Shown one piece after another: positions 1,266 to 24,999 of a stretch of 24,999 bases of DNA. Every line of letters begins with the position of its first letter. Position 1 is the first letter of the stretch. The stretch covers positions 1-24,999 of IMG/VR virus record IMGVR_UViG_3300009149_000255; one strand, given 5' to 3'. The stretch comes from a virus. The translations under genes were made by a program, and so were the position numbers. A model generated the notes under the pieces. The model ran no database searches. It had not been told where the DNA came from and worked only from the letters and a program-made list of their open reading frames with translations.

Positions 1266-1598
1266 TTAAGCCTTTGTATAAGCAATAACATCTATTACTT
1301 CCATACAAGGTGGTTCAGCTTCAGAATTACTCATTGTAGCAACAACGAAAATAGGTCCTTCGGTATGAATAATATATCGAAGGATTTTTTTATCATCTTC
1401 ACCATAACCTAAAAATTTAATATTAACATCCTCAAAACCATATTCCATTAGTTTCTTACTAATTAAAGATTTAATACTTTCACCTGTACAAGGTATTTCT
1501 TTTAAAACACTTGCGAGTTCTATTGCACTAACTTCGTTAATTCTAGACTCAGTTAGTTTTTCTAATTGTGATTCTGTTAATCTAATTACTCTTTTCAT
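1266..1598 (-). CDS. Small protein with the recurrent LTES-type N-terminal tag
   Basis: This is a 110-residue protein whose N-terminus (MKRVIRLTESQLEKLTES) is nearly the same as that of two genes located 18 to 19 kb away (19533 and 20341). The rest is a compact alpha/beta-looking domain of about 80 residues that I cannot name. It contains SAIELASVLKEIP, LISKKLMEYGFEDVNIKFLG and a final hydrophobic strand. The tag resembles T4 capsid-targeting peptides and is followed by an I-N-E sequence that fits a gp21-type cleavage site, so packaging into the head is a plausible inference. It lies 3 bases behind the GX3-repeat gene and is probably co-transcribed with it from the divergent promoter near 2200. 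Confidence 0.75.
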   Translation of the reverse strand: MKRVIRLTESQLEKLTESRINEVSAIELASVLKEIPCTGESIKSLISKKLMEYGFEDVNIKFLGYGEDDKKILRYIIHTEGPIFVVATMSNSEAEPPCMEVIDVIAYTKA

Positions 1599-1601
1599 AT
1601 A

Positions 1602-2192
1602 TTAATAATTTTCATTATAATCCTCATCATATTCTCTAGGGTCAAAACCAGATTCAATTCTTTCTAGATCGTCTACTTCTACACCAGCTTCATAAGCTCT
1701 ACCTTCTTCAAAGGCTTTATAGTAAGCTTCCTCAGAACCTTCTTCACGACCTTTTTGGTACCCGTCTATTAAACCTTCATCGTACCCTTCATCAAACCCC
1801 TTATCGTACCCTTCTTCATATTTTTCTTCAGCCTCACTGTCGATATCGGCTCTCATATCTTCTTGTCCTTCGTCATAACCCTCACTATAACCTTCTCTAC
1901 GAGCTTCACCCCAAGCCTCTTGTTGCCCTTCTTCTCTACCATTCTCATAACAAGAATAAGCGAAATCGTGTAAAGCTTTATAAAGGTCGGTTAATTTATC
2001 TCCACTCATACCTAAGTTATAGATTGAGTTGACAAGCATATTTTTTTCTGGGTTATGAACATAATACCCAAATCCTTTTAAACCATCCAGTGAATTACCT
2101 ATTTCTGATTTTGATGCTGGATTAGTATCCCTAACCCAATCAAAATCATTATCTTCTTTTAATATTTTCTTAATTAAATCTTTCATTATCAT
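1602..2192 (-). CDS. Acidic GX3-repeat protein with N-terminal tag
   Basis: This is a 196-residue strongly acidic protein. It begins with a short amphipathic segment ending in I-L-K-E (KDLIKKILKED), related to the tag seen in other genes here. Residues of roughly 85 to 175 form a long run in which Gly recurs every four residues, for example EGYSEGYDEGQED and EGYDKGFDEGYDEG. A G-x3 periodicity of this kind is known from the deca-GX3 motif of Yae1/Lto1 proteins, where it forms a helical hairpin. Homology is not implied, only a similar helix-packing pattern. Two possible starts exist, ATG at 2192 and ATG at 2186. The start lies immediately below one arm of the inverted ATATTTAT motif at 2196-2215. 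Function is unknown. Confidence 0.75.
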   Translation of the reverse strand: MIMKDLIKKILKEDNDFDWVRDTNPASKSEIGNSLDGLKGFGYYVHNPEKNMLVNSIYNLGMSGDKLTDLYKALHDFAYSCYENGREEGQQEAWGEARREGYSEGYDEGQEDMRADIDSEAEEKYEEGYDKGFDEGYDEGLIDGYQKGREEGSEEAYYKAFEEGRAYEAGVEVDDLERIESGFDPREYDEDYNENY

Positions 2193-2195
2193 TTA

Positions 2196-2215
2196 ATAAA
2201 TATCGTGATATTTAT
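2196..2215. promoter_or_regulatory. Back-to-back copies of the ATATTTAT motif (divergent promoter candidate)
   Basis: GATATTTAT is present on the minus strand (plus 2204 down to 2196) and on the plus strand (2207-2215), separated by two bases, forming an almost perfect palindrome between two divergent genes. Each copy points at the gene on its side. The distance to the start codons is only 0 to 5 bases, shorter than for the other copies, so the transcript would be leaderless or the true start would lie slightly inside. An operator is an alternative reading. Confidence 0.5.
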
Positions 2216-4111: not shown

Positions 4112-6202
4112 ATGAGAAAAAGTACTTTACAAAGAATGTTACAATTAGCTGACATTAAACCTGTCATAAAAGAAAGTAAAATTACACTTTCTAATTTTGA
4201 ATTGGTTAAAGAGTCTGTTAACGGTAAAACATACGCTATTGTTAGAGAAAATAACAAATATCATATAAAGGAGGCTCAAACAAAAAATGGTTTAACTGAG
4301 TCTGACTTTAATTACGTTGGTGGTGTTATGAATAAAATGAAAAAATCATTTCATTCTTACAGTGATGCAACCAAACATTTAAATCTTATGTTTGAAGAAA
4401 TTAATAACCATCATGATGTTGATGTTATTAATATTCTAGAATCAGATCAATTATTAAACGAAAAGAAATTTGTATTAAAATTAGATAAAAAGAAAAAATC
4501 TAAACCAGTTCCACCAGCAGAAGAACCTGTAGCTGATGAAGGTGATGAAGAGGAAGAAGAATTCGATTTCGGTGGTGAAGAAGAAGGTGATACTGAAGGA
4601 GAAGAAGATTTCGATTTCGGAGGTGAAGAAGAAGAAGATACTGAAGGAGAAGAAAATTTCGATTTCGGAGGTGAAGAAGAAGGTGATACCGAAGAAACAG
4701 ATGTTGAGGAATTTGGCGATGAAGGTGATGAAGATTTAGAGTTAGAAGATTCTGATGATGAAATCAAAGATATACAAAGCACAACAGGAAAATTAGGCCA
4801 ACAACTTAGAGATGTTGAGGATATTTCTTCTGATATGCAAAAATGGGTTGCCAAATCTGTTTTATCGGCTTTAGATTTAGATACAATGGATTCGGAAGAT
4901 AAAAAAGATATTATCAAAACTATCAAAAAGAAAGAAGAAGAACCAACTGAAGAAGAGAGTGGTGAGGAGGATTTTGACTTTGGTGGTGAAGAGGAAGAAA
5001 TGGAAGAATCATACGATAACTACATGGGTAGTGACTATGATGATGACATGGATGGTATGGATGGTTATGATTGGGATGGTGTGAATGTAGAGGATGAATT
5101 CCCTTCTTATGAAGATGTCTATGAAAAAGATGTTGAAATGAGGGATATTGAAATGCCTATCAAAAATAAAAGACATTTAAACTTAGACCCAGCTAACACA
5201 AAAAACCCTTACGATGACTACGATTCTTATATGGAAGAAAAAGGTTTTAATGAGGAGGCTTTTGATTCTTTTATGGATGAGATGGAAGAATTGGGTATCA
5301 CGTCTAAAGATTCCAAATACGAATCTTATATGGAAGATACTGAGTTAGGTGGTGATGAAGATGATAAAGTTGCAGGACCTGATGAGGTTGATGGTGGTAT
5401 GTTATTATTAGACATAGATGAGGATATGGGTCCTGAAGAAATGGATGCTTTATACGGACCAAACTCGTCAAGAAATTATAGTAGGTCACAAAGTTCTAGA
5501 GCTATGAGACAGGCTAATAAAGATATTTCAAAACATTACCATAGACCAGCAGCACCGGGTTATGAAAGTGACCCTGTAGAAAAATGGGCAAAACATAAAT
5601 TACCTTATGATATGGAATTTATGGGTGAAGGTGATTACATGAATGAAGACCATTTGAACGACAAGATGGATACATACGAACAAGAAAAGGCTTATGAAGA
5701 TGTTGAAACTGTTGTTAGGCGATATGGGATGGATGTTAAATTAAGAGAAAAACAAGATTCAGAAGATCCTGAAGAAACTTTAATTTACTTAGATATTGTA
5801 GACGGTAATAAAAAAATACTTGTAACAAGAATTAATTCTGTGGGTGATATTGAGGTAGGTGAGATGCGAGGAAACAAATTTTCTGGTGAACCTCTTGACA
5901 GTGTGGAAGATTTTATCGAAATTTTTGGAGAAGATTTAACTAGTAAAGAAAGAAAAGATTTAGACATGGCAGAAAACATTGAAATGAGTCCAGCTCCACA
6001 AAAAGCACCTGAAAAGGATCCAAGTCAACCAGCTACAAAACCTGGTAAACCTGAAAAAACTCCGGGTAAAGATAGACCATCAAGAAGACCGTTTAGTCCA
6101 CCATCAAAAATAGACCCAAACGATCCTGATGCAATACCAGCACCTAAAGCCCCAGCTCCTGAAAAACTACCAACAGCTGATAATGACATAGAATTCGAAT
6201 AA
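4112..6202 (+). CDS. Large acidic repeat protein, probable head or virion component
   Basis: This is a 696-residue, very acidic protein. Residues 1 to about 130 form a folded domain with KESVNGKTYAIVRENNKYHI and a helical part ending near NHHDVDVINIL. Then come low-complexity Glu/Asp runs with three tandem copies of a 16-residue unit containing FDFGGEEE, and a fourth degenerate copy near residue 285. A Tyr/Asp/Met-rich stretch follows that includes ESYDNYMGSDY, and a second folded region lies near residues 540 to 620. A Pro/Lys/Ala-rich tail ends the protein. Several (I/L/V)-x-E-S sites (VIKES, LVKES, LTES) fit the specificity expected of a gp21-like protease. The exact role (internal head protein, scaffold-like core or other structural protein) is not settled. 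Transcription appears to end at the hairpin at 6221. Confidence 0.7.
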   Translation: MRKSTLQRMLQLADIKPVIKESKITLSNFELVKESVNGKTYAIVRENNKYHIKEAQTKNGLTESDFNYVGGVMNKMKKSFHSYSDATKHLNLMFEEINNHHDVDVINILESDQLLNEKKFVLKLDKKKKSKPVPPAEEPVADEGDEEEEEFDFGGEEEGDTEGEEDFDFGGEEEEDTEGEENFDFGGEEEGDTEETDVEEFGDEGDEDLELEDSDDEIKDIQSTTGKLGQQLRDVEDISSDMQKWVAKSVLSALDLDTMDSEDKKDIIKTIKKKEEEPTEEESGEEDFDFGGEEEEMEESYDNYMGSDYDDDMDGMDGYDWDGVNVEDEFPSYEDVYEKDVEMRDIEMPIKNKRHLNLDPANTKNPYDDYDSYMEEKGFNEEAFDSFMDEMEELGITSKDSKYESYMEDTELGGDEDDKVAGPDEVDGGMLLLDIDEDMGPEEMDALYGPNSSRNYSRSQSSRAMRQANKDISKHYHRPAAPGYESDPVEKWAKHKLPYDMEFMGEGDYMNEDHLNDKMDTYEQEKAYEDVETVVRRYGMDVKLREKQDSEDPEETLIYLDIVDGNKKILVTRINSVGDIEVGEMRGNKFSGEPLDSVEDFIEIFGEDLTSKERKDLDMAENIEMSPAPQKAPEKDPSQPATKPGKPEKTPGKDRPSRRPFSPPSKIDPNDPDAIPAPKAPAPEKLPTADNDIEFE
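4553..4696 (+). repeat. Three tandem 48-bp repeats encoding FDFGGEEE units
   Basis: Units lie at 4553-4600, 4601-4648 and 4649-4696. Each encodes a 16-residue block of the form E-E-x-F-D-F-G-G-E-E-E-x-D-T-E-G/E. The second and third units differ at only a few bases. A diverged fourth unit begins near 4965. The near identity points to recent in-frame duplication, and copy number could vary between relatives. Confidence 0.85.
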
Positions 6203-11500: not shown

Positions 11501-11682
11501 CCAAAGCTATTGTTAATAGTTGGTCTGTTGAAACTAATAATATTAGTGATAATAAAATTTTGGGTGAGGTTGCTGGTACGGGCTTCTACACAGACCAAAA
11601 AACAAAAAATAATAATGTCACCGTTGACCAATTTAAAGAAAACATGTGGTTATTTGGTGGTATGAGGGGATTTAAAAAATAA
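8521..11682 (+). CDS. Terminase large subunit (gp17-like), interrupted by an in-frame intein
   Basis: The ATP-driven motor and nuclease that packages phage DNA into the prohead. The 1053-residue precursor consists of a terminase of about 611 residues, close to the 610 of T4 gp17, plus a 442-residue intein. The ATPase part shows a Walker-A-like KPRQAGIST (residues 63-71) and Walker B VIVVDEAAF with D171 and E172. After removal of the intein the sequence reads GRSILIS joined to TPNGHDPLYH, which restores the conserved coupling motif. The C-terminal nuclease domain shows its acidic residues in MSADPSSGSSDDFAG, VVVDITGG and YHDDLLMSIAM. Both parts are therefore complete and the open frame is intact, so the gene should be functional if the intein splices. 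It follows a strong terminator and a candidate late promoter. Confidence 0.96.
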   Translation: MSLSKAQMLLEIGKCLTDPIYAIENYLETEDRTQDGFVPFKLFPRQKELVSAYKAHHHNIVMKPRQAGISTTTAAYLSVLTALASNKSTQKVLIAANKQETAKEFLKKIRDFTVQLPAWMDVYRPPNSDSWFDPEKNSSSHYKLWNGSEVKAVASSKDALRGYTPSVIVVDEAAFIEGNKGEEFYTAAQPSLSTGGRSILISCVTDDTFVLTPKGIKEVSDFVEYDKEGGYFTKEYEVFGYGKSRKSNIFHNNGYVDTKIIETKFSKLEGSNNHKLYAYSEKDNRFGWYKLEELNVDDYVPIIYGHDVWGDNDDCSDFTPIENIRNKNKFNPSVITEDISYFMGLFLAEGSTYKFIKNGKHYGTSITISCGDDVSHVFDKLGLNHSYDGQWHYTTGSKELGEFLEYIGFDLSKKAKEKVIPKRIFELSRNNVIAFIKGFMDGDGHSRQDNGRVGLCSSSKRLVEQFRMLFMNFGILCEYQEILMKPTKRVKVESTNFRLNMSTRNSKKYYDIIGFDFERKQIKRENLVTPTLRNSYDVIPMGVEIVKESYKKSKKGLKFFRDNGCDISHVTKNNGKVKHVSRELMLSFLDLVNEEHGLVKDNITWVKIKSITNNKNETYDFSLPDSEEDFWCHSVLYNGILGHQTPNGHDPLYHKAYVTAEKGKNNFNIISMKWYEDPRYNGRNDGSGMSWILRHEKTDEVIEEIVDPKSGFGPDAVVPEEKWVEMIEKGYEPRSKWFDDMCAQLNHNARSIAQELLCSFVGSGNNVIDGKYKNRQERDNVKDPIRKEWIDGNMWIWEDPIEGHQYIMSADPSSGSSDDFAGICIWDFTTGNQVAEYHGKVAPDVLGEICKYYGESYNAFVVVDITGGWGASVILKLIELGYPKKNLYYDVVVGIDSVENNKALQKFMDKGKLPGLSFQKNRNTIISKLEESVRMDSFKIRSKRALAEIETFVFISGRADHMKGYHDDLLMSIAMCCFVGATSFKDIEKSKGQAKAIVNSWSVETNNISDNKILGEVAGTGFYTDQKTKNNNVTVDQFKENMWLFGGMRGFKK
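9127..10452 (+). mobile_element. Intein with LAGLIDADG homing endonuclease inside the terminase
   Basis: The element spans precursor residues C203 to Q644. Block A begins CVTDDTFVLTPKG. Block B is GSNNHKL with the expected histidine at 274. The endonuclease part carries two LAGLIDADG motifs, FMGLFLAEG (342-350, acidic residue E349) and FIKGFMDGDG (435-444, acidic residue D443). The C-terminal region has TYDFSLPDSEEDFW and ends LYNGILGHQ. The first extein residue is T645. The nucleophile Cys, block-B His and penultimate His are all present, but the terminal Asn is replaced by Gln. The insertion point, right after Walker B in the conserved IS/TPNG motif, is a place where inteins are known in phage terminases. 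It is in frame with no stop codon. Confidence 0.95.
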
Positions 11683-12805: not shown

Positions 12806-14695
12806 ATGGCAGAAAATAATAAAAACCTAACAGTATACCAAAAATTATTTTACTTGTTTGGACAAGGTAATGGTGGGGTTAAAGCTAATGTCACCAATAA
12901 AAAATATGCTTTAGGTGATAAGGATTTAATTGTTTCAAAATCTAGAGAAGACTTTGAAAGAGAACGTTTACAACAACAACAACAAAAATATTTAGAAGGA
13001 CAATGGGCTAAAGTAGAAAATGATTTATACCAAAAATCTGTTTTTTATGAAACAACTAGAATAGCTTCCTATATGGATTATGAGGGAATGGAGTTTACTC
13101 CGGAAATAGCTGTATCTCTTGATATTATGTCTGAGGAGTCTTGTACTTTAAATGAACAAGGTAATATTATGTCTATTTATTCTGATTCTAGTAGAATAAA
13201 GAAAGTTTTAGAGGATTTATTTTTTAATATAATAGATATCCACTCTAACCTACCAATGTGGACTAGAAACACATGTAAATATGGTGATAATTTTGTCTAC
13301 TTAAAAATTGATTACAAGTCAGGTATTATAGGGGTTAATCAATTAACTAACCTAGATGTAGAAAGAAAAGAATCTAATTCTTTCCCTTTTCAGTCACAGA
13401 ATATGGAGGCTATGGGTGATGATACTAAAAAAAGGGAGGTCAAATTTATTTTAAAAGATAAGAATATTGAATTTAATGCATGGGAATTAGCTCACTTCCG
13501 TTTATTAGGTGACGACAGAAAATTACCTTATGGAACATCTGTATTAGAAAAAGTAAGACGTATATGGAAACAACTTCTTTTAGCTGAGGACGCAATGTTA
13601 GTTTATCGTGTTACAAGAGCACCTGAAAGAAGAGTTTTTAAAGTTTATGTGGGTAATATAGATGATGCCGATGTAGAATCATATGTACAAAAAGTTGCTA
13701 ATAAATTTAAGAGAACACAAACTGCTGATAGAGAAACTGGACAAACTGATATTAGGTATAATACATTAGCGGTAGACCAAGATTATTTTGTTCCTGTTAG
13801 AGACCCTAACGCTTCCATGCCTATAGAAACACTACCTGGGGCATCAAATCTAGACCAAATAGCCGATATTCAGTTTATTCAAAGAAAAATGGTAACCGCC
13901 TTAAGAGTTCCTAAAACTTTCTTAGGTTTTGAGGATGTTGTTGGTGAGGGTAAGAATTTGGCCTTAATGGATATTAGGTTTGCAAGAACTATTAATAGAA
14001 TCCAACAAGCTATGATTCAAGAATTGAATAAAATAGCTATTATTCATTTGTATATATTAGGATTCCATGATGAACTTAATAATTTTAAATTAACACTTAA
14101 TAACCCATCTACACAAGGTGAGATGTTAAAGGTTGAGCAATGGAAAGAAAAAGTTCTTCTTTATAAAGATTTAACTGGTAGTGATGGTGGTATTGCCCCT
14201 ACATCACATACATGGGCTAAAAAGAATATATTTAATTGGTCTTCTGATGAAATTTTAGAAGATTTAGAACAACAAAGATTAGAAAAGGCTGTCGTTACTG
14301 AACTAGAAAAAACATCTGAAATCATTAAAAATACTGGTTTCTTTAAAAAGGTTGATAAACTTTATGGTGAATTACCTATGGACCAAGGTCAGGCTGACAT
14401 GGAAGGTGATGATACTGGAGGTGATACAGGTGGATTCGGTGGGGATACCGGAGGCTTTGGTGGGGATACCGGAGGATTTGGTGGTGAAGAAGCTGGTGGA
14501 TTCGGTGGTGGTGAAGAAGCTGGTGGTGAAGAAGCTGGTGGATTCGGTGAAAGTTTTAGAGGTGATGAAAATACAATAGAAAAATTACTTTTAGAGGGTA
14601 AGAAAAAAAATGAAGACATATTTAATATGACTAAAGGTATTGACATACTTTTAAATGAAGAAAATGATGACGATAGTGAACTACTTATAAATTAA
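12806..14695 (+). CDS. Portal protein (gp20-like)
   Basis: Forms the dodecameric ring at one capsid vertex, through which the terminase pumps DNA and to which the neck attaches. The protein is 629 residues, longer than T4 gp20 (524). The gp20-like features are the MDYEGMEFTPEIAVSLDIM segment near residue 95, WTRNTCKYGDNFVYLKID, the AWELAHFRL block, YGTSVLEKVRRIWKQL, VTRAPERRVFKVYVGN, and the LPGASNLDQIADIQF and KTFLGFEDVVGEGKNLALM stretches. The extra length is mainly a C-terminal Gly-rich repeat (GGFGGDTGGFGG) and a tail containing KLLLEGKK, which fits a gp21-type cleavage site (L-L-E/G). It has its own candidate late promoter and is followed by a second one. Confidence 0.95.
   Translation: MAENNKNLTVYQKLFYLFGQGNGGVKANVTNKKYALGDKDLIVSKSREDFERERLQQQQQKYLEGQWAKVENDLYQKSVFYETTRIASYMDYEGMEFTPEIAVSLDIMSEESCTLNEQGNIMSIYSDSSRIKKVLEDLFFNIIDIHSNLPMWTRNTCKYGDNFVYLKIDYKSGIIGVNQLTNLDVERKESNSFPFQSQNMEAMGDDTKKREVKFILKDKNIEFNAWELAHFRLLGDDRKLPYGTSVLEKVRRIWKQLLLAEDAMLVYRVTRAPERRVFKVYVGNIDDADVESYVQKVANKFKRTQTADRETGQTDIRYNTLAVDQDYFVPVRDPNASMPIETLPGASNLDQIADIQFIQRKMVTALRVPKTFLGFEDVVGEGKNLALMDIRFARTINRIQQAMIQELNKIAIIHLYILGFHDELNNFKLTLNNPSTQGEMLKVEQWKEKVLLYKDLTGSDGGIAPTSHTWAKKNIFNWSSDEILEDLEQQRLEKAVVTELEKTSEIIKNTGFFKKVDKLYGELPMDQGQADMEGDDTGGDTGGFGGDTGGFGGDTGGFGGEEAGGFGGGEEAGGEEAGGFGESFRGDENTIEKLLLEGKKKNEDIFNMTKGIDILLNEENDDDSELLIN
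14411..14548 (+). repeat. Tandem Gly-rich repeats in the portal C-terminus
   Basis: Imperfect repeats encode DTGGFGG units three times and then EEAGG(FGG) units three times. Base-level copies such as GGGGATACCGGAGG and GGTGAAGAAGCTGGTGG recur with few changes, indicating slippage or unequal recombination. T4 gp20 has no comparable segment. Confidence 0.85.
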
Positions 14696-16231: not shown

Positions 16232-16617
16232 TGTTACTATTAAGCATATTTTTGATTATCTTATCTGGTATAGCTGAAGGTGTAATGGATACGATACAAT
16301 TCCATTACATGTCATCAAAATTTAAAAATTTTAAGAATCATTTATTTTGGGACCCATATCATTCATGGAGAAATAAATATAAAAATGGGAATCCAGAAGA
16401 AGGAGAACGTTTTCCTTTCTCAACTACCTTGTTAGTGGGATTTACAGATGCTTGGCATTTATTTAAATTACTTAGAAATTTATTTATTTTTAGTTCTATT
16501 TTTTTATTACTAATGTTTTTTGAACAAGGTTTGGGTACAAGTTTATTAGTAACAGCACTTTTAAGAATATTCTTTGGATTTGCCTTTACTATAATGTATA
16601 GAAAAATGGGGGTATAG
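16228..16617 (+). CDS. Membrane protein overlapping the tRNA gene
   Basis: This is a 129-residue protein with an N-terminal membrane segment (LLSIFLIILSGIAEGVMD), a central soluble loop with HYMSSKFKNF and DPYHSWRNKYKNGNPEEGE, a TDAWHLFKLLRNLF stretch, and two further hydrophobic segments. The loop and DAWHLFK motif look conserved and I believe similar proteins occur in Bacteroidetes and their phages, but no function is known to me. The last codons (ATG GGG GTA TAG) lie inside the 5' end of the tRNA-Ala gene. Confidence 0.7.
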   Translation: MMLLLSIFLIILSGIAEGVMDTIQFHYMSSKFKNFKNHLFWDPYHSWRNKYKNGNPEEGERFPFSTTLLVGFTDAWHLFKLLRNLFIFSSIFLLLMFFEQGLGTSLLVTALLRIFFGFAFTIMYRKMGV

Positions 16618-16681
16618 CTCAGTTGGCTAGAGCATCTGCCTTGCACGCAGAGGGTCGTGGGTTCGAATCCCTCTACCTCCA
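16608..16681 (+). tRNA. tRNA-Ala (anticodon TGC)
   Basis: A 74-base cloverleaf. The acceptor stem GGGGGTA (16608-16614) pairs with TACCTCC (16674-16680), including the G3-U70 wobble pair that is the main identity element for alanyl-tRNA synthetase. The D-arm GCTC/GAGC, anticodon stem TCTGC/GCAGA around CTTGCAC (anticodon TGC) and T-loop TTCGAAT are all present. The T-stem GTGGG/CCCTC has one T-T mismatch. The discriminator is A and CCA is not encoded, so the end must be added by an enzyme. The first 10 bases overlap the 3' end of the upstream gene. As part of a long late message it would need processing by RNase P and a 3' nuclease. Confidence 0.93.
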
Positions 16682-16711
16682 CTACAATAACAAAATGAGT
16701 AAAATGTTTTT

Positions 16712-17136: not shown

Positions 17137-18282
17137 ATGAAAGTTTTTTTAGAATACGTTTGGTTGGACGGTAATCAACCACAACAATTAAGGAGTAAAA
17201 CTAAAATCGTTGATTCTAGTGATTTATTTGATGACCTAGATGAGTTGGAGAATACTACCAACCCAAAAAATTATTCTGATTGGTCTTTTGATGGTAGTTC
17301 CACAAAACAAGTTAAAGCAGGTAGGGGTGAAAATACAGATTGTGTTTTAAAACCTGTTTATGTAACTAAAGACCCTTTTAGAGGTGGTTTAAATAAAATT
17401 GTTTTTTGCCAAGTATTTAATTCCGATGGTAAAACACCACATGAAACAAACACAAGATTTAAATTAGAAGAATTAACAAATTCTTTAAACTTAAATGATG
17501 AAGAATTAGTAAAATCTGATTTACCTTGGTTTGGGTGGGAACAAGAATACACTTTAACCACAAAAAAAGTAAAAGAAGTTGGTCACCCATTTACAGAAGG
17601 TGAAGGTTTACCATTAGGTTTCAGTGATGGTTATTTTGGTCAACCTAGACCACAAGGTGATTATTATTGTGGAACAGGTGCTGATACAGTAATTGGTCGT
17701 GACATTGTGGAAGAACATATGAATCTTTGTGTTTATATGGGTCTTGATGTTTCTGGAATTAATGCTGAAGTAATGTTGGGTCAATGGGAATATCAAATAG
17801 GACCCGTAACATCAACTAATGGTTCAGACCAACTATGGGTTTCTAGGTACGTTCTACAACGTGTGGCAGAGAAACATGGTGTAAAAGTATCTTTCCACCC
17901 GAAACCGATGAAAGGTGATTGGAATGGTTCAGGGTGTCACGTTAATTTTTCTAATAAAGAAATGCGTGAAGAAGGTGGTCTAGAGTTGATTAAGGATACA
18001 ATGATTAATCTTTTAAATAGACACGAAGAACATATTAAATCTTATGGTTTATTTAATGATGAAAGAATGACAGGTGAACATGAGACTTCTAGTATTCATG
18101 ATTTTAATTGGGGTTATAGTACAAGAGACACTAGTATTAGAATTCCTGTACAAACACAAATAGAGAAAAAGGGATACTTTGAAGATAGGCGGCCAGCCTC
18201 AAACTGTGACCCTTATACGGTTTCTTTAAAAATGTTAGAAACTGTGTATAACCAAGTTAATCAACTTGTGGGTGTTGAGTAA
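17137..18282 (+). CDS. Glutamine synthetase, type II (GSII, eukaryote-like)
   Basis: Makes glutamine from glutamate, ammonia and ATP. The 381-residue protein covers the whole GSII length. Signature parts in order: YVWLDGNQPQQLRSKTK (7-23), WSFDGSST (49-56), PWFGWEQEYTL with E135 and E137, GDYYCGTGAD and GRDIVEEHMNLC (174-198), SGINAEVMLGQWEYQIGP (206-223) with E211 and E218, GDWNGSGCHVNFS (260-272) with H268, ERMTGEHET (309-317), SIRIP (333-337) and GYFEDRRPASNCDPY (346-360). All metal- and substrate-binding motifs appear intact, so activity is expected. The length and motif set exclude GSI and GSIII. The gene sits in a late unit between two terminators, with a structural-gene neighbourhood on both sides, so it is best read as a phage-carried metabolic gene. 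The codon and base composition do not stand out from its neighbours by eye. Confidence 0.97.
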   Translation: MKVFLEYVWLDGNQPQQLRSKTKIVDSSDLFDDLDELENTTNPKNYSDWSFDGSSTKQVKAGRGENTDCVLKPVYVTKDPFRGGLNKIVFCQVFNSDGKTPHETNTRFKLEELTNSLNLNDEELVKSDLPWFGWEQEYTLTTKKVKEVGHPFTEGEGLPLGFSDGYFGQPRPQGDYYCGTGADTVIGRDIVEEHMNLCVYMGLDVSGINAEVMLGQWEYQIGPVTSTNGSDQLWVSRYVLQRVAEKHGVKVSFHPKPMKGDWNGSGCHVNFSNKEMREEGGLELIKDTMINLLNRHEEHIKSYGLFNDERMTGEHETSSIHDFNWGYSTRDTSIRIPVQTQIEKKGYFEDRRPASNCDPYTVSLKMLETVYNQVNQLVGVE

Positions 18283-18777: not shown

Positions 18778-18787
18778 CATATTTATA
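18778..18787 (+). promoter_or_regulatory. CATATTTATA late-promoter candidate for the protease operon
   Basis: An ATATTTATA (18779-18787) follows the terminator and precedes the protease ATG at 18802 by 14 bases, the same spacing as at 3779 and 12728. Confidence 0.6.
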
Positions 18788-18801: not shown

Positions 18802-19533
18802 ATGAAAATATTAAAACCGGGTGAAGAAGGACGTGGTTATCTAGTTGAGTTTGATTCTGGATTTATTTCGTCAGAATTAACTTGTCAAGACGGTGTTTGT
18901 TCAAACCATAATCTAATAAATGAATTTAAATCAGGTTTAACTCTAGGAAAAGATGGTTCTTTACCTGATAAAATCGAAATATACGCAGTTCTCCAAAAAT
19001 GGGGTGTAGAAAATAAAAACGGTAGAGTTTACCCCGAAGAAATCCTTAAAAGGGAGGCAAAAAGATACCAAGAATTTATCGACATGGGAACTTCTCTAGG
19101 TGAATTAAATCACCCTGAATCTTCTATTATTGATGCAGATAGAGTATCCCACAGAATCACAGAAATTTGGTGGAATGGTAAAACGCTTATGGGTAAAATG
19201 GAATTGGACACAACTCCAGGTTATCTTAAATCAGGAATTATTTCATCTGTAGGTGATAAAGTTCTTAATATGATTAGAAAAGGTTGGACCGTGGGTATCT
19301 CATCAAGAGGTGTTGGTTCACTTAAAAACGAAAATGGTAAGAATGTGGTACAAGATGATTTTGAATTAATCTGTTGGGATATCGTTACATCACCGTCAAC
19401 TCCGGGTTCTTGGATTTCTACGAGTAAGAAAGATTTAACTTCTTTTATGGAATCAACCAAAGATAATAAAACAAAATTAATCTCTGAAAATGATTCAGAT
19501 TTATTGGATAGTTTAAATAAATTTTTATTGTAA
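18802..19533 (+). CDS. Prohead core protease (gp21-like, peptidase S77 type)
   Basis: A serine protease of the T4 gp21 family that sits inside the prohead, degrades the scaffold and trims capsid and internal proteins before DNA packaging. The 243-residue protein shows the family order: IYAVLQKWGVENKNGRVYP (60-78), GTSLGELNHP with catalytic His104, then DADRVSHRITEIWW, and GWTVGISSRGVGS (161-173) with the likely nucleophile Ser168, followed by FELICWDIVTSPSTPGSW (187-204). T4 gp21 is of similar size. The C-terminal part contains LISENDS, which fits self-processing at an (I/L)-x-E site. The stop overlaps the start of the tagged protein gene at 19533 by one base, linking protease and tagged proteins in one operon. 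Confidence 0.95.
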   Translation: MKILKPGEEGRGYLVEFDSGFISSELTCQDGVCSNHNLINEFKSGLTLGKDGSLPDKIEIYAVLQKWGVENKNGRVYPEEILKREAKRYQEFIDMGTSLGELNHPESSIIDADRVSHRITEIWWNGKTLMGKMELDTTPGYLKSGIISSVGDKVLNMIRKGWTVGISSRGVGSLKNENGKNVVQDDFELICWDIVTSPSTPGSWISTSKKDLTSFMESTKDNKTKLISENDSDLLDSLNKFLL

Positions 19534-19844
19534 TGAAAAAAAGAGTTGTAAAATTAACTGAATCGGATTTGGAGAATTTGGTTAAACGTATTATTAAGGA
19601 ATCTGATGAGGATTGGTTGACTAACACTTATGGTGAAGATTTACACACAGAAGAAGAAATGAATTATGTGTGGGATAAGTTAAATAGAATGAATAGTGAT
19701 ATCGTTTTTGAAAGAATGGAAAAAACATTTAACGAAGAAAGTATGAGTGTTGAGAGTTTCGTAGATTACTTACCAACCCATTTTGGTTTGGATGAAGATT
19801 ATTTAATTTCAGTATTAAAACAAATTCAAAAAGAAGGGATATGA
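19533..19844 (+). CDS. Tagged small protein 1 (LTES...IIKE N-terminus)
   Basis: This is a 103-residue acidic protein. The N-terminus KRVVKLTESDLENLVKRIIKE is basic and amphipathic and ends in I-K-E-S, which matches the cleavage rule of gp21 proteases. It is nearly the same as the N-terminus of the genes at 20341 and 1266. The rest (WLTNTYGEDLHTEEEMNYVW and FVDYLPTHFGLDEDYLISVL) is helical and unrelated to the other tagged proteins. This mirrors T4 internal proteins, in which a short N-terminal targeting peptide is removed by gp21, so packaging inside the head is the best inference. The start overlaps the protease stop by one base. Confidence 0.75.
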   Translation: MKKRVVKLTESDLENLVKRIIKESDEDWLTNTYGEDLHTEEEMNYVWDKLNRMNSDIVFERMEKTFNEESMSVESFVDYLPTHFGLDEDYLISVLKQIQKEGI

Positions 19845-20314
19845 AAAATATTATATCAGAAACGGAATTAAAGAGAATGGTAAAGAAAGTTGCCAGAAAA
19901 GAAAAACTTAATAAGATTAATGAAAGTTATGACAACTATATGGGTGATTCTATTTTTGATGATATTGATAATGATATAATGGAAATGCCAAAAGAAGAGG
20001 CTTTAGATTATTTAGACGAAATCATCAACTTTTGTATTAATAAACAAGAAGATTTAGGGTACGATAATTATATGGATGATGTTCACGAAGAAGAAAAGTG
20101 GATTCAAAAAGCTATTAAAAAACCAGGTTCTTTAAGAAGAAAAATGGGTAAAAAAGAAGGTGAGAAAATAACATCAACTGATATTAAAAATAAATTAGCT
20201 TCATTAAGAGCTAAAGATGAAGACCCAACCAAAAAAGGTGTTCAAGGTTTGGGTAAAAAAGATTTAAAAACTTATAGACAATTAAATTTAGCCAAAACTT
20301 TACGTGGCTTATAA
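19841..20314 (+). CDS. Tagged small protein 2
   Basis: This is a 157-residue protein. The N-terminus (SETELKRMVKKVARKEKLNK) is a variant of the tag, ending in I-N-E-S. Immediately after it comes ESYDNYMG, the same octamer as in the large acidic protein encoded at 4112. An acidic helical middle follows, then a basic C-terminal half rich in Lys/Arg (KKPGSLRRKMGKKEG, later GLGKKDLKTYRQLNLAK), which could bind DNA. An acidic-to-basic layout with a targeting peptide is compatible with an internal head protein that meets packaged DNA. This is inference. It overlaps the previous gene in ATGA style. Confidence 0.7.
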   Translation: MKNIISETELKRMVKKVARKEKLNKINESYDNYMGDSIFDDIDNDIMEMPKEEALDYLDEIINFCINKQEDLGYDNYMDDVHEEEKWIQKAIKKPGSLRRKMGKKEGEKITSTDIKNKLASLRAKDEDPTKKGVQGLGKKDLKTYRQLNLAKTLRGL

Positions 20315-20340
20315 ATACTTATATAATAAATAAAAAAAAA

Positions 20341-20658
20341 ATGAAAAAGAAGATAGTTAGACTAACAGAATCAGATTTGGAAAAATTGGTTCAACGTATT
20401 ATTAAGGAAGAGGATGAAATAGATCAAAACACACCTGAAGATGGTGGTGAAAATGAAGATAATCCACAAGACGTGAAGAACTTCTTGGAAGCGATGAAAA
20501 AATACTTTATGAATAAGTACCCAAGATTTGCTAATAAAATTAATACTAGAAAAGAAAAAGCAATGTTACTAGCTGCATTAGCTGAAGAGTTGGGTGTGGA
20601 TACTAATATGATTAACATGGCTAAAGGAGAATTAAAAAAATCTGGTCTAAATAAGTAA
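20341..20658 (+). CDS. Tagged small protein 3 (LTES...IIKE N-terminus)
   Basis: This is a 105-residue protein whose N-terminus KIVRLTESDLEKLVQRIIKE is almost identical to that of the gene at 19533. A short acidic linker (EDGGENEDNPQ) follows, and then a helical domain (FLEAMKKYFMNKYPRFANK and ALAEELGVDTNMINMAKGEL). The body differs from the other tagged proteins, so the tag looks like an exchangeable module. The ATG has a long A-only leader and no Shine-Dalgarno site. Confidence 0.75.
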   Translation: MKKKIVRLTESDLEKLVQRIIKEEDEIDQNTPEDGGENEDNPQDVKNFLEAMKKYFMNKYPRFANKINTRKEKAMLLAALAEELGVDTNMINMAKGELKKSGLNK

Positions 20659-20659
20659 C

Positions 20660-21184
20660 ATGAACATCCGTAGAATCATAAAAGAAGAACTTCTTAAAGA
20701 GGTGGGTGGTTATGATGACCCAAATGTTATGGCTACACATGCTGGTCATACTATGGGTGTTTTAGCTGATTCTTATAATGACTTATCAAACACTTTACAA
20801 GGTTTGGCTAACGCAATCATGGATAAAGCAGAAAAAGAAGACCTTGTTATTTTTTTAAAGGAAACTTCAAAAAAAATTAGTTTCCTTGTTGATGTTATTG
20901 AAAGGGTGTTAAAAGATTTCACCGAAGATGATTTAATAATGAAAGCCAAATCAATAATTAAATCACTAAAATCTTTTAAAAGAAAAATAGATGTTCTTTC
21001 TAATTTTTCTGATGTTATGGGTGGTAATGAAGATTTTATTGAAAGGTTAAAAATTCTATTAATGGATTTAATCCCTTCTATACAAGAATATGGTGAACAA
21101 TTAAGTATTACAAATAAAATGTTTGGTGATAGAACTTCTGGTATGGGTAGAGGTTCTTTTGGTTCAGGATTTAGTCCAAATTAA
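20660..21184 (+). CDS. Tagged helical protein 4
   Basis: This is a 174-residue protein starting MNIRRIIKEELLKEVGGYDD, a shortened tag with two possible (I/L)-K-E sites. The body is helical (NTLQGLANAIMDKAEKEDL and SFLVDVIERVLKDFTEDDL) and ends in a Gly/Ser-rich tail (TSGMGRGSFGSGFSPN). No family is recognised. It starts 1 base after the previous stop codon, so translation is likely coupled. Head-internal location is inferred only from the tag and operon. Confidence 0.7.
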   Translation: MNIRRIIKEELLKEVGGYDDPNVMATHAGHTMGVLADSYNDLSNTLQGLANAIMDKAEKEDLVIFLKETSKKISFLVDVIERVLKDFTEDDLIMKAKSIIKSLKSFKRKIDVLSNFSDVMGGNEDFIERLKILLMDLIPSIQEYGEQLSITNKMFGDRTSGMGRGSFGSGFSPN

Positions 21185-21254
21185 TACTTCACTAATTAAA
21201 ATATAATCATTAGTATTAGTTTAATTAAATTATAAAAAATAAAAACGTTTTAAA

Positions 21255-21488
21255 ATGGGAGATCAAACATTAAACTTTTTTCTTGTAAGAGTAGAATTCA
21301 AAACAATTAACGAACAAACAGGAAAACCAAAAAAAATCAAAACACAATACTTGGTTGATGCCATGACTTGTACTGAAGCAGAAGCAAGAACTCATCAATA
21401 CTTAAATGGAACTGTATTGGATTATGAGATTGTATCAGCAGTTAAATCACCAATCGAAGATGTGATTAGAGTTGAGGTTCTAGCTTAA
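21255..21488 (+). CDS. DUF4494-like protein
   Basis: This is a 77-residue protein with the pattern NFFLVRVEFKTINEQTGKPK, then TQYLVDAMTCTEAEARTHQY. This corresponds to the DUF4494 family, small proteins of unknown role found widely in Bacteroidetes and their phages. The family is the strongest taxonomic hint in the window. The gene has an A-rich leader and is followed by a convergent terminator. Confidence 0.75.
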   Translation: MGDQTLNFFLVRVEFKTINEQTGKPKKIKTQYLVDAMTCTEAEARTHQYLNGTVLDYEIVSAVKSPIEDVIRVEVLA

Positions 21489-21504
21489 CAAAAACTGTTA
21501 AAAC

Positions 21505-21536
21505 AAAAAAAAGACTCAGAAATGGGTCTTTTTTTT
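21505..21536. terminator. Bidirectional terminator between convergent genes
   Basis: A-run plus AGACTC (21505-21517) pairs with GGGTCT plus T-run (21524-21536) around a 6-base loop. It stands between the gene ending at 21488 (+) and the one ending at 21535 (-), so both can use it. The minus-strand stop codon overlaps its last bases. Confidence 0.85.
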
Positions 21537-21963
21537 AATCTCTATATTCTTCAGGTAATCCCATACCATCAGCAATCTTATCAAATAACCCATCATGTTC
21601 TTTGTGTTTTGGTAGGTCCTCACCCACACAGGCATGAATTAATTCATGTACAATAACCCATTTAAGATATTCTTTATCATCCAAAGCTTTTGATTTAATA
21701 CCCATTAAACCATTTTTACCATTTTTAGGGTGATTAAAGCCAGCTATTTTCCCATCAACAATATCATCATCTATTTTAATGTCTATTGTAGGTAAGTCTA
21801 AATCTTTACCTGTAACATCTAAATAAACTTTTTTTAACTTTTTTTCTATTGAATTTTTTAAAGACCTGATTTGATTCAAATCCCCATTTTCTTCATTTAA
21901 AACAAATCTTTTAGCCTCACTAAGTAAGGTTCTTTTAATGATATTTTTAATATTTTCTCCCAT
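21535..21963 (-). CDS. SprT-like zinc metalloprotease with N-terminal tag
   Basis: This is a 142-residue protein. VIVHELIHACVGEDLPKHKEH (104-123) contains an HExxH zinc site (H106, E107, H110), and H123 with the following GLF fits the third ligand as in SprT/WSS1-type metalloproteases. The N-terminus (NIIKRTLLSEAKRFVLNEEN) resembles the tag of the small head proteins, with L-S-E-A matching the gp21 cleavage consensus very well. The protein may therefore be carried in the virion. The substrate is unknown; DNA-bound proteins are degraded by SPRTN relatives, which makes a DNA-associated role possible. A candidate promoter motif lies 6 bases upstream. Confidence 0.75.
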   Translation of the reverse strand: MGENIKNIIKRTLLSEAKRFVLNEENGDLNQIRSLKNSIEKKLKKVYLDVTGKDLDLPTIDIKIDDDIVDGKIAGFNHPKNGKNGLMGIKSKALDDKEYLKWVIVHELIHACVGEDLPKHKEHDGLFDKIADGMGLPEEYRD

Positions 21964-21969
21964 ATAAAG

Positions 21970-21978
21970 ATAAATATC
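21970..21978 (-). promoter_or_regulatory. GATATTTAT motif before the metalloprotease gene
   Basis: GATATTTAT on the minus strand, 6 bases before the ATG at 21963. It points into the metalloprotease gene and is paired with a plus-strand copy at 22032. Confidence 0.45.
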
Positions 21979-22107: not shown

Positions 22108-23310
22108 ATGGCTGAAACAAGAAAGTCTATCATCGATGAAGCTTTTATGGAAGCAGAAGCAATTGAGCAAGCTTTCAAGGTCAACTCAAAAGAAATACTG
22201 GCCCACACAATGGGTTCAGATATTGAACAAATGGTAAAGGAATCTTTAGAAGGTTCGAATGGCTTAAAAGAAGACGAAGATGAAGAGAATGTTGAGTTAG
22301 AGTTAGACTCTGATGAGGCCGGCTTAGATGCTGGTGACGACCTTGACCTAGAATTAGGTGATGAGGATGAAGATGAAATGGACATGGATTTCGACTTAGA
22401 AGACGAAGACATGGATATGGATTCTGAGGAAGACCTTGATGTAATAGACCTTACAGGTGAGGATGATGACAAAATCATTTCTGTGTTTAAAAAAATGGCA
22501 CCAGAAGATGAGATTGAAGTTGTTCAAACAGCTGATGGTGTAGAAATCAAGGATAACGAAACTGGTGCTGAGTATAGAATAGAACTTGGTGGTGATTCTG
22601 AAATGGAAATGGATGACATGGACATGGAACTTGATTTAGATGATGAGGACATGGATATGGATGACATGGATATGGATGATGAAGAAGGTGAAGAAATCGA
22701 ATACCAAATCGAACTTGATGACGAGGAAGATGAAGAAGGTGGAGAAGAAGGTGGAGAAGAAATGGAAGATGAAATGGAAGAAAGTTACGCTGGTAAACGC
22801 AGAAAAGGTAACAAATACCATGGAGCAGCTCATTTCCCAACAAACGAATCTAGAGCACCTAAGTTCTTAAAGTTAGTTAACGAAAACAAAGTTCTAAAAA
22901 ATAAAGTTAGTTCTATAGTGTCTGAAAACGATACTTTAAAAGAAGACTACAACAAAATGGTAGACGCTCTTAAAGAGTTCAGACAAAAATTAAATGAGGT
23001 AGCTGTTTTTAACAGCAATCTTACTTATACAGTTAGATTATTTACTGAACACTCAACTACTAAAGATGAGAAAGTTGATATTATCAAAAGATTCGATGAT
23101 GTAAAATCACTTAAAGAATCTAAAAATGTTTACAAAAACTTAGTGAAAGAAATTTCTAAAACTAAGGCTCCTTTAAAGGAATCTATTGATAATAGACTTA
23201 ATCAAACTAAAAGTAGTGGTTCAGCAACTGAAATAACTGAATCAAAAGTTTATGTAGATCCACAAATTGAAAAAATGAAAAAATTGTGGTCATACGAATA
23301 TAAACAATAA
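22108..23310 (+). CDS. Prohead scaffold protein (gp22-like)
   Basis: Forms the internal core around which the capsid assembles and is later cut up by the prohead protease. The 400-residue protein has a short helical N-terminus (SIIDEAFMEAEAIEQAFKV and MGSDIEQMVKESLEG), then about 180 residues of extreme Asp/Glu/Met composition (runs such as MDMDFDLEDEDMDMDSEEDL), an EMEESYAGKRRKGNK junction, and a C-terminal coiled coil (NENKVLKNKVSSIVSENDTL, later FNSNLTYTVRLFTEHSTTKD). The coiled-coil region and the place directly before the major capsid gene fit gp22. The acidic part is larger than in T4 gp22. IEQMVKES and KSLKES are possible cleavage sites. Confidence 0.85.
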   Translation: MAETRKSIIDEAFMEAEAIEQAFKVNSKEILAHTMGSDIEQMVKESLEGSNGLKEDEDEENVELELDSDEAGLDAGDDLDLELGDEDEDEMDMDFDLEDEDMDMDSEEDLDVIDLTGEDDDKIISVFKKMAPEDEIEVVQTADGVEIKDNETGAEYRIELGGDSEMEMDDMDMELDLDDEDMDMDDMDMDDEEGEEIEYQIELDDEEDEEGGEEGGEEMEDEMEESYAGKRRKGNKYHGAAHFPTNESRAPKFLKLVNENKVLKNKVSSIVSENDTLKEDYNKMVDALKEFRQKLNEVAVFNSNLTYTVRLFTEHSTTKDEKVDIIKRFDDVKSLKESKNVYKNLVKEISKTKAPLKESIDNRLNQTKSSGSATEITESKVYVDPQIEKMKKLWSYEYKQ

Positions 23311-23340: not shown

Positions 23341-24999
23341 ATGGGATATTTATTAAAATCAGGTGAAGTCGGAAATATCGGACTTAAACACCAAAAAGCA
23401 GTTCGTGAAGCAACTGTAAGCAAATGGGAATCTTTAGGATTCTTAGAAGGTCTTAATGGCCACGTAAGAGAAAACATCGCTTTGTTATATGAAAACCAAG
23501 CGTCTGTTCTTATTAATGAAACTACTGACGCTGGTTCTTCTGGTTCTTTCGAAACTGTAGTTTTCCCTATCGTAAGACGTGTATTCTCTAAATTATTAGC
23601 GAATGATATCGTATCTGTACAAGCTATGAACTTACCAATCGGTAAATTGTTCTACTTCGTACCTAAAATTTCTGAAAGAAATGGTGATGGTACTACAGCA
23701 CTTTCTACACATGGACAGCCTGTTATCGCAACTTGTCTTGACAGTACTTGTCCACCAACTAGTTACTCTGACGCGGTTAAAAACCTTTATGACCAATTTT
23801 ATAACGATGGTTTATTTGATCAATCAAAAGGTGCTTTTACAGCAATCACTTCAACACCAATTCTTGTGATTTGGACGGCTACTTCAGCTGAGTTTACAAC
23901 TGGTGTATCTGCATTCGCTGGTGATGGTTCTGTTAGAACTCAAATCGTTAAATTATGTGGTTTCAATACAGCTGGAGCAGGAAGATTAACTGGTCCTAAT
24001 GGAAATGAAATGGATTCTGAAGAGTTCTTAGCTTCTTTAGATATTACAACTAATAGTGTATTAGTAGACAAAGATAACAAGACAATTATCGCTTCTGGTG
24101 ATAGAGTTCCTTTTAGAGTTGTTACTCAAAGATATGGTAAAGGTATTGTTAACTACGGTGATATCTGTAGTCCTCAAGGATGTATTTACTTAGAATTAGA
24201 TTTAACTCACCCAGTATGTGTTGAGTGTGGTGATGGTACTTTCGATGGTTACATCGGAGCACAATCAGGTTCAACAACTATCGTTCCTGGTGCAGGTGTT
24301 GTTAATTTAGGTGGTACTTCATTCGTAGCAGTTTGGAGACAATATGAGTCTTTAGAACTTGAATCTCAAATGGGAGAAGTTTCTTTCGAATTAGATTCTG
24401 TAACAGTATCTGTAACTGAAAGAAAACTAAGAGCTACTTGGACTCCTGAATTAGCTCAAGACGTAGCAGCATTCCATAACATTGATGCTGAAGCTGAATT
24501 AACAGCTTTATTGTCTGAGCAAGTTGCAGCAGAAATTGACCGTGAAATCTTACGTGACTTACGTAAAGGTGCAGCATGGCAATTACGTTGGGATTACAAC
24601 GGATATAAGAGATTACCACAATCTAACGCTTACACTCAAAAAGAGTGGAACCAAACGTTAGTAACGGCAATCAACCAAATCTCAGCACAAATCCATAAGT
24701 CTACATTGAGAGGTGGAGCTAACTTTATCGTGGTATCTTCTGAAGTATCAGCTATTTTTGATGATTTAGAATACTTCCACGTATCTAACGCTTCTCCTGA
24801 GCAAGATAACTACAACATGGGTATCGAAAGAGTAGGTTCATTATCTGGACGTTACACTGTATACCGTGACCCTTACGCACCAGCTAACTCAGTGTTAATT
24901 GGACACAAAGGACAATCATTGTTAGATACAGGGTATATCTACGCTCCATATGTACCACTACAATTGACACCTACAATGTATAACCCATTTAACTTTGTA
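23341..24999 (+). CDS. Major capsid protein (gp23-like), 3' end beyond the window
   Basis: The main shell protein. The visible 553 residues begin MGYLLKSGEVGNIGLKHQKA and show the gp23 pattern: SKWESLGFLEGL, then ENIALLYENQASVLINE, SFETVVFPIVRRVFSKLLAND, MNLPIGKLFYFVPK, then the conserved core with FELDSVTVSVTERKLRATW, PELAQDVAAFHNIDAEAELT, SEQVAAEIDREILRDLRKGA, and NFIVVSSEVSAIFDDLEYF, down to APYVPLQLTPTMYNPF. A site L-I-N-E (57-60) before T61 fits the maturation cut that in T4 follows Glu65. The codon choice is richer in G and C than the neighbouring genes, as expected for a very highly expressed gene. It starts 30 bases after the scaffold gene with a leader that is nearly all A. The reading frame is open at the right edge. 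Confidence 0.97.
   Translation, partial: MGYLLKSGEVGNIGLKHQKAVREATVSKWESLGFLEGLNGHVRENIALLYENQASVLINETTDAGSSGSFETVVFPIVRRVFSKLLANDIVSVQAMNLPIGKLFYFVPKISERNGDGTTALSTHGQPVIATCLDSTCPPTSYSDAVKNLYDQFYNDGLFDQSKGAFTAITSTPILVIWTATSAEFTTGVSAFAGDGSVRTQIVKLCGFNTAGAGRLTGPNGNEMDSEEFLASLDITTNSVLVDKDNKTIIASGDRVPFRVVTQRYGKGIVNYGDICSPQGCIYLELDLTHPVCVECGDGTFDGYIGAQSGSTTIVPGAGVVNLGGTSFVAVWRQYESLELESQMGEVSFELDSVTVSVTERKLRATWTPELAQDVAAFHNIDAEAELTALLSEQVAAEIDREILRDLRKGAAWQLRWDYNGYKRLPQSNAYTQKEWNQTLVTAINQISAQIHKSTLRGGANFIVVSSEVSAIFDDLEYFHVSNASPEQDNYNMGIERVGSLSGRYTVYRDPYAPANSVLIGHKGQSLLDTGYIYAPYVPLQLTPTMYNPFNFV

Follow-up and report, generated by a model that had tools for sequence, protein, structure and literature searches.

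Unrelated proteins of large T4-related phages share N-terminal peptides predicted to act as cleavable capsid-targeting tags

Introduction

In bacteriophage T4, an N-terminal capsid-targeting sequence (CTS) is sufficient for loading proteins into the scaffold core, is cut by the prohead protease gp21 after (I/L)xE, and is carried by rapidly changing cargo (PMC9026906, PMC3012670). The internal proteins of T-even phages are diverse, and only the CTS is conserved among them (PMC3012670). In the giant phages SPN3US and phiKZ, the propeptides of ejection proteins are mostly longer than 100 residues and end in motifs such as AxE and SxE (PMC5694885). Here, a 25 kb fragment of an uncultured virus (IMG/VR record IMGVR_UViG_3300009149_000255, positions 1 to 24,999; hereafter the window) was analyzed, in which several proteins begin with a recurring basic, amphipathic peptide of the RLTESDL type, termed the class A tag. 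A sequence-only reading of the window had proposed that this peptide sends diverse cargo into the prohead and is removed there by a gp21-type protease.

Several features could be read directly from the sequences: the N-terminal place of the tag, its sharp (I/L)xE end, the exchange of tag classes, gene fusions that keep the site, the company of the Peptidase_S77 (S77) protease, and a promoter-like upstream element. The tests of the end, the swaps, the fusions, and the company agree with a CTS-like peptide, a gp21-type cut, and diverse cargo. The tag is probably a greatly expanded analogue of the T4 CTS that would be removed by the prohead protease, with the tagged proteins packaged, cleaved, and injected.

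Like the CTS of IPI, IPII, IPIII, and Alt, the tag is a short N-terminal peptide with an (I/L)xE end on unrelated small proteins, and, as in T4, it occurs together with an S77 protease and gp20, gp22-like, and gp23 homologues in the T4 order. Unlike the CTS, which has 10 residues in IPIII, the class A tag has 20-23, several non-homologous classes are swapped on the same body, and the set of tagged genes is larger. A class A profile found nothing in T4, where IPI begins MKTFKEFTSTTTPVSTITE↓A (↓ marks a cut, known or predicted); the tag appears to work like a CTS but has no sequence homology to the CTS peptides of T4. The likeness to SPN3US and phiKZ lies in propeptides cut by a phage prohead protease after a short Glu-ending motif and in diverse internal proteins that reach the host, whereas the repeated short tag, the motifs, and the head lineage differ. 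New in the present set are the families of peptides, how many genes bear a tag, and the fact that unrelated classes are swapped at a single protease site.

Form and spread of the class A tag

A total of 267 unique class A copies were collected, nearly all on viral contigs, with the consensus (M)KKxIRLTESDLxRLVKRVIxE. The tag is N-terminal, as 258 of the 267 copies begin at a start codon, and the bodies behind it are unrelated, as the sequence-only reading had stated for the window: 253 tagged bodies fell into 173 clusters, including 140 singletons.

A degenerate DNA pattern coding for R-L-T-E-S-D-L...I-x-E matched at least 119 stretches in IMG/VR. Among the matches listed, 145 of 147 sat 4-6 codons after an ATG, in many different proteins. 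The exact tag pattern had no match in 257 Gb of bacterial and archaeal genomes. With a tag profile, 78 matches were found in eight tiled contigs and the window (1.7 Mb); column 21 was Glu in 75 of these, and at least 75 began at a start codon. Of 14 large contigs retrieved through their protease, 12 also matched the profile (one at E 0.04 only), and most S77-bearing tag contigs of more than 100 kb had 3-16 class A copies. The profile gave no match in T4, RM378, Flavobacterium phage immuto, or nine large viral contigs chosen at random. Likewise, tblastn searches of GenBank phages with the tag alone, or with the tag and the beginning of one body, gave no match, and a literature search turned up no mention of LTESDL or GDVKPL.

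End of the tag

The claim that the tags end in (I/L)-x-E was borne out by the 258 unique N-terminal tags, where column 21 was Glu in 253 (4.06 bits) and column 19 (P3) was I or L in 234. After Glu21, the information fell to 1.59, 0.71, 0.57, and 0.28 bits in successive columns, and this abrupt drop in conservation indicates that the tag stops exactly at (I/L)-x-E, the gp21 cleavage motif. Because the fetch pattern required this Glu, a recount was made on tags outside its selection: Glu was present in 147 of 152 tags that the pattern could not pick and in 45 of 46 at loci fetched only by their protease.

In the major capsid protein of the same clade, L-[IL]-[NTS]-E60↓[TAS] was found in 54 of 55 homologues, where T4 gp23 is cut. 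The propeptide of T4 gp23 has 65 residues (PMC5694885). For comparison, the N-terminus of T4 IPI has ...TITE↓A and gp23 has ...FLTE↓A. Genome-wide in six tiled contigs, [ILVM]xEQ was enriched about sevenfold at residues 16-24 relative to positions past residue 100. Control motifs in the same contigs rose less or not at all; [ILVM]xxEQ also rose, since class A has I at two neighboring positions.

Tag classes, exchange, and fusions

De novo clustering of similar N-termini on dissimilar bodies recovered class A (175 body groups) and at least six further classes: B (MKIIITESQ; 69 body groups), C (MNLQEQINRI / MKNLIRKILKE; 56), D (ITEEEKNRI...YLxE; 37), E (SKIRHIQEANQRLE; 30), F (LGDVKPLxxE; 9), and G (KRGVVISE; 9). 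Sec-type signal peptides, which served as a positive control, also emerged as clusters. Hydrophobic-x-E within 40 residues was nearly always present in classes D, E, F, and G, compared to a background of 54%, and its enrichment in classes B and C was clear yet weaker.

More than one tag class was borne by 21 body clusters, and several pairs of homologous bodies change class exactly at the Glu of (I/L)-x-E. For example, contig L105 has an RLTESDL tag where L139 and L282 have MNRSFSKIRHIQEANQRLEKRLVENVITE, both on E↓TGTDSKVRF with a body identity of 96%, and the switch falls at one point (MKKIIRLTESDLTRLVKKVIAE↓TGTDSKVRF versus MNRSFSKIRHIQEANQRLEKRLVENVITE↓TGTDSKVRF). Contigs L156 and L360 differ before E↓GLHDTSW (MKYIISENQYNFLLE↓GLHDTSW and MNLQEEIQRIREMMGVINE↓GLHDTSW), and another body carries class A in L167 and class D in L332 and L347. 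Additionally, the homologues of two window genes, 20341 and 20660 (window genes are named by their first coordinate, with (-) for the minus strand), are fused in one open reading frame (ORF) in L018 and L020, with RIDE↓VGGYD and QLDE↓IGYDS at the join. The site is thus kept where neither a start codon nor a tag is needed.

These observations bear on a reading in which the tag directs proteins to the prohead core but stays on, (I/L)xE being merely the end of a binding helix. A polar residue following a helix-final Glu would be unremarkable under this reading, and the P1' residues of the tags are unlike those of the capsid site. However, the ending is the sole feature common to unrelated tag classes, the fused genes hold the site between two bodies, and the Glu varies far less than the end of a helix ordinarily does, which makes an uncut tag unlikely.

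A broader proposal is that at least seven non-homologous, interchangeable tags with only the protease site in common form a multi-class address system that loads a fast-evolving set of injected proteins (in the order of 5-19% of genes), in which the classes may differ in the core protein that they bind or may set copy number. We consider this possible, at somewhat less than an even chance; if true, mature cargo would often start with a glutamine, since E↓Q junctions are frequent.

Some proteins carry class D and class F tags in tandem (L149, L315, L349, L370, and others), the double form being LSEEEKNSIREQHTGG followed by FSKLLNSKLGDVKPLxSE↓Q. Many class C proteins, including window 1602-2192(-) and those in L383, L389, and L390, have [DE]FDWV directly after the predicted cut, a shared motif that a simple picture of unrelated bodies leaves unexplained. 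There is also a conserved tagged protein of the form YMFFSNLEQ...KLCARG...CKGRMPGLDGKK (L366:550-1041, L320, L327, L336, L344, and L389), which has an RLTESDL-like tag or MKIKLTEEQYKKIIKE and in several genomes is encoded on the strand not used by most tagged genes.

Head genes and phage group

The company of the tag was surveyed in 37 tag contigs of at least 60 kb. An S77 protease was encoded in 18 of them, and a gp20 portal in the same 18 and in one more with the portal at the contig end. All tag contigs that showed a T4-like head module had S77, except for one that ends before the expected gene; the protease was hence present in the window and in every contig with an uncut head module. The S77-negative contigs had no gp23 above cut-off, no S78 protease, no Terminase_6C, and, except for the edge contig G014, no strong T4 TerL. 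Five of them share the long tail sheath of S77-positive relatives with a complete head. The absence of other head markers and the shared tail sheath suggest that the S77-negative contigs are fragments, and another head type in them was rejected on these observations. Weak TerL matches in G005 and G037 appeared by eye to be a helicase and PhoH-like proteins. A tag common in phages without a gp21-like protease, which had been named as evidence that would speak against capsid targeting, was not found among the 37 contigs. In close relatives, the start of a tagged gene commonly falls a few bases at most from the stop codon of the protease.

The ribosomal protein bS21 was encoded in 19 of 26 contigs tested, nearly all of them tag-bearing (including G038, G039, and G009), mostly between the portal and the protease and on the opposite strand; the window fragment has no bS21 gene. 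The presence and placement of bS21 link the group to the Bacteroidetes bS21 phages (PMC9723584), and the tag phages and the bS21-encoding Bacteroidetes phages of Chen et al. 2022 (PMC9723584) are very likely the same group. The tag viruses are large and T4-related and probably infect Bacteroidota. In the passages of Chen et al. (PMC9723584) that were examined, head genes are described as expressed late, genomes reach 331 kb, bS21 itself is speculated to be encapsidated, and tags or processed internal proteins are not mentioned. A gene reported there as cotranscribed with the protease was considered as a tagged gene and dropped; bS21-type contigs have an untagged DUF4494-like gene downstream.

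Upstream element, cargo, and selection on the peptide

The motif TATTTAT was found within 90 nt upstream (mostly 10-30 nt) of 84 of 143 tagged genes, compared to 411 of 1,498 other genes from crude ORF calling (p 1e-13). It also precedes the protease, portal, and scaffold genes in nine of nine contigs each, usually within 75 nt. It is a putative late promoter core that would be common to tagged and head genes.

Among 103 representative tagged proteins searched with Pfam, few were named and most had no assignment. Named cargo included peptidoglycan-binding proteins (6), lysozymes, M23, LysM, L,D-transpeptidase-like proteins, GNAT, kinases, and poly(A) polymerase/tRNA nucleotidyltransferase. By a crude count, tagged genes of all classes make up about 5-19% of called genes.

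A cargo that in part looks peptidoglycan-directed would suit a tag that serves as an interaction or localization signal outside the capsid (at the membrane, ribosome, host polymerase, or replication site), with (I/L)xE uncut or cut by another protease; amphipathic helices can anchor in membranes, and the tag genes are scattered along the genomes. We give this only a small probability, as S77 and the head module accompany the tags, P3 and P1 match the capsid site, the upstream element is common with head genes, and in close relatives the cluster lies directly behind the protease.

Within genomes, the codons of identical tag residues matched at 0.51-0.65, compared to 0.43-0.51 expected from codon usage. 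Because the tags retain 57-64% amino-acid identity with a codon match barely above expectation, the peptide is under selection, and the slight excess indicates that some copying has happened. That excess would fit tags that are leftovers of a recombining cassette, made up of a gene start and its first 20 codons and copied in front of new genes, with a peptide that has no role, but this is very improbable, as within genomes the 30 nt upstream are 35-49% identical versus 57-64% amino-acid identity of the peptide, conservation stops sharply at the Glu, and different peptide classes share the same ending.

Proposed mechanism and implications

If the tag is indeed a CTS analogue, tagged proteins would be made late in infection alongside the head proteins. 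The amphipathic tag helix, whose LTESD resembles a helix N-cap, would bind the scaffold core of the growing prohead, and the S77 protease would cut after (I/L)-x-E and release the cargo within the head. The freed cargo would then be packaged alongside the DNA and reach the next host by ejection. Several unrelated tag classes would serve the same role and be exchangeable among cargo genes.

Several points weigh against this mechanism. The P1' residue is mainly Q, E, D, or N in the tags versus T, A, or S at the capsid site, hence it is not assured that the same enzyme cuts the tags. In classes B, C, and D, the motif is at residues 11-22 in 62-64% only, with a background of 30%, and some members of these classes may be uncut or unrelated. 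Part of the cargo resembles endolysins and peptidoglycan-binding proteins, which are not necessarily head proteins. T4, RM378, and immuto, the closest cultured S77 relative, are without the class A tag, which is therefore lineage-specific. The crude ORF calling behind the TATTTAT comparison also belongs here.

T4 carries just a handful of CTS proteins, and injected effectors of other phages are normally found by proteomics. With a readable tag, hundreds of candidate capsid-delivered proteins could be listed from sequence alone, and these belong to large phages of fresh and marine waters that form an abundant group and probably infect Bacteroidota. In T4, IPI* acts against a restriction enzyme and Alt acts on RNA polymerase, precedents that point to anti-defence and take-over proteins among the cargo. 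The tags would also be new packaging peptides to try for loading foreign proteins into phage capsids.

Tagged genes and their neighbors in the window

The ORFs of the window stand where the sequence-only reading had placed them (Table 1), and the order of head genes, gp20-x-gp21-x-gp22-gp23, is the same as in T4. The 18802 protease scored 100.8 bits for PF03420 (cut-off 27), which places it in Peptidase_S77 with T4 gp21, and 13.6 bits for the S80 protease family PF20034, below the cut-off of 23.4. The 22108 scaffold had no family match of its own in Pfam and PHROG profile searches; its N-terminal SIIDE↓A likewise fits the cleavage motif, and its relatives start with KKKSI(L/I)EE↓A. The predicted propeptide site of the 23341 capsid protein is LINE60↓T61.

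Table 1. Features of the window discussed in the text.
Feature	Coordinates	Strand	Evidence or remark
Tagged cargo protein, class A variant MKRVIRLTESQLEKLTESRINE↓V	1266..1598	-	tag profile E 8e-9; orthologue in G038
Class C tag MKDLIKKILKE↓D before FDWVRD-containing protein	1602..2192	-	de novo class C cluster member; orthologue in L379
TATTTAT element	2196..2202	-	upstream of 1602(-)/1266(-)
Acidic protein, proposed earlier as tagged, not supported	4112..6202	+	N-termini of orthologues not conserved
Large terminase gene with intein-like insertion	8521-11682		Intein_splicing and LAGLIDADG_3 matches
gp20-like portal protein	12806..14695	+	phrog_213 E 4e-56
TATTTAT, putative late promoter element	18780..18786	+	upstream of protease/tag cluster (18802)
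gp21-type prohead protease (Peptidase_S77), proposed processing enzyme	18802..19533	+	PF03420 E 8.8e-29, phrog_207 E 4e-43
Tagged cargo protein 1, class A tag residues 1-23, predicted cut E23↓S24	19533..19844	+	tag profile match
Class A tag MKKRVVKLTESDLENLVKRIIKE, then S	19533..19601	+	tag profile
Tagged cargo protein 2, diverged tag MKNIISETELKRMVKKVARKEKLNKINE↓S	19841..20314	+	
Tagged cargo protein 3, class A tag residues 1-23, predicted cut E23↓E24	20341..20658	+	tag profile
Class A tag MKKKIVRLTESDLEKLVQRIIKE, then E	20341..20409	+	tag profile
Tagged cargo protein 4, short tag MNIRRIIKEELLKE↓VGGYDD, four-helix-bundle body	20660..21184	+	
SprT-like metalloprotease (candidate), variable amphipathic N-terminus MGENIKNIIKRTLLSE↓A	21535..21963	-	PF10263 E 3.5e-4, under Pfam cut-off
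TATTTAT element	21970..21976	-	upstream of 21535(-)
Acidic gp22-like scaffold	22108..23310	+	placed between gp21 and gp23 homologues as in T4
gp23-like major capsid protein, extends past window end	23341..24999	+	PF07068 E 1.8e-64

Between the protease and the scaffold lie 19533, 19841, 20341, 20660, an untagged DUF4494 gene (21255), and the SprT-like 21535(-). The first four had been described as overlapping the protease or each other: 19533 shares 1 base with the protease gene and 4 bases with 19841, but gaps of 26 and 1 bases precede 20341 and 20660. A tag is shared among 19533, 20341, and 1266(-), although "nearly identical" was too strong for the more diverged MKRVIRLTESQLEKLTESRINE of 1266(-). 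Orthologues of 19533 (L097, L004, and L018) keep both tag and body, and E23 and several tag columns are invariant in 12 orthologues of 20341.

The shorter or diverged tags of 19841 and 20660 were recognized correctly, as orthologues join a full tag to the same body at the same Glu. For 19841, this is a full class A tag in L015 and L162. In orthologues of 20660, either MNIRRIIKEELLKE or a full RLTESDL tag (full class A in L008 and L162) precedes the same VGGYDD body, and Glu14 is invariant across 18 of 18 despite the tag difference. A structure model of 20660 had low confidence in the tag helix and junction and a predicted local distance difference test score (pLDDT) of about 90 in the four-helix bundle; Foldseek searches of the model against PDB and BFVD returned generic helical bundles and nothing significant. 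At 1602(-) and 21535(-), short N-termini ending in I/L-x-E are present and retained in relatives, but they are of other kinds than the class A tag; those of 21535(-) orthologues diverge, yet most retain hydrophobic-x-E at a similar place. A tag at 4112 was discarded, its orthologues being without a comparable N-terminus. Searches of the window cargo against Pfam and PHROG gave SprT-like, Yae1_N-like, and weak matches and nothing else.

A phage-encoded glutamine synthetase (Gln-synt_C, E 4.5e-20) is located at 17137-18282, just upstream of the protease region, and a tRNA-Ala(TGC) at 16608-16682. Within the 15-25 kb region, only the tRNA stretch matched GenBank phages at the DNA level, with 86-89% identity to Prevotella Lak phages.

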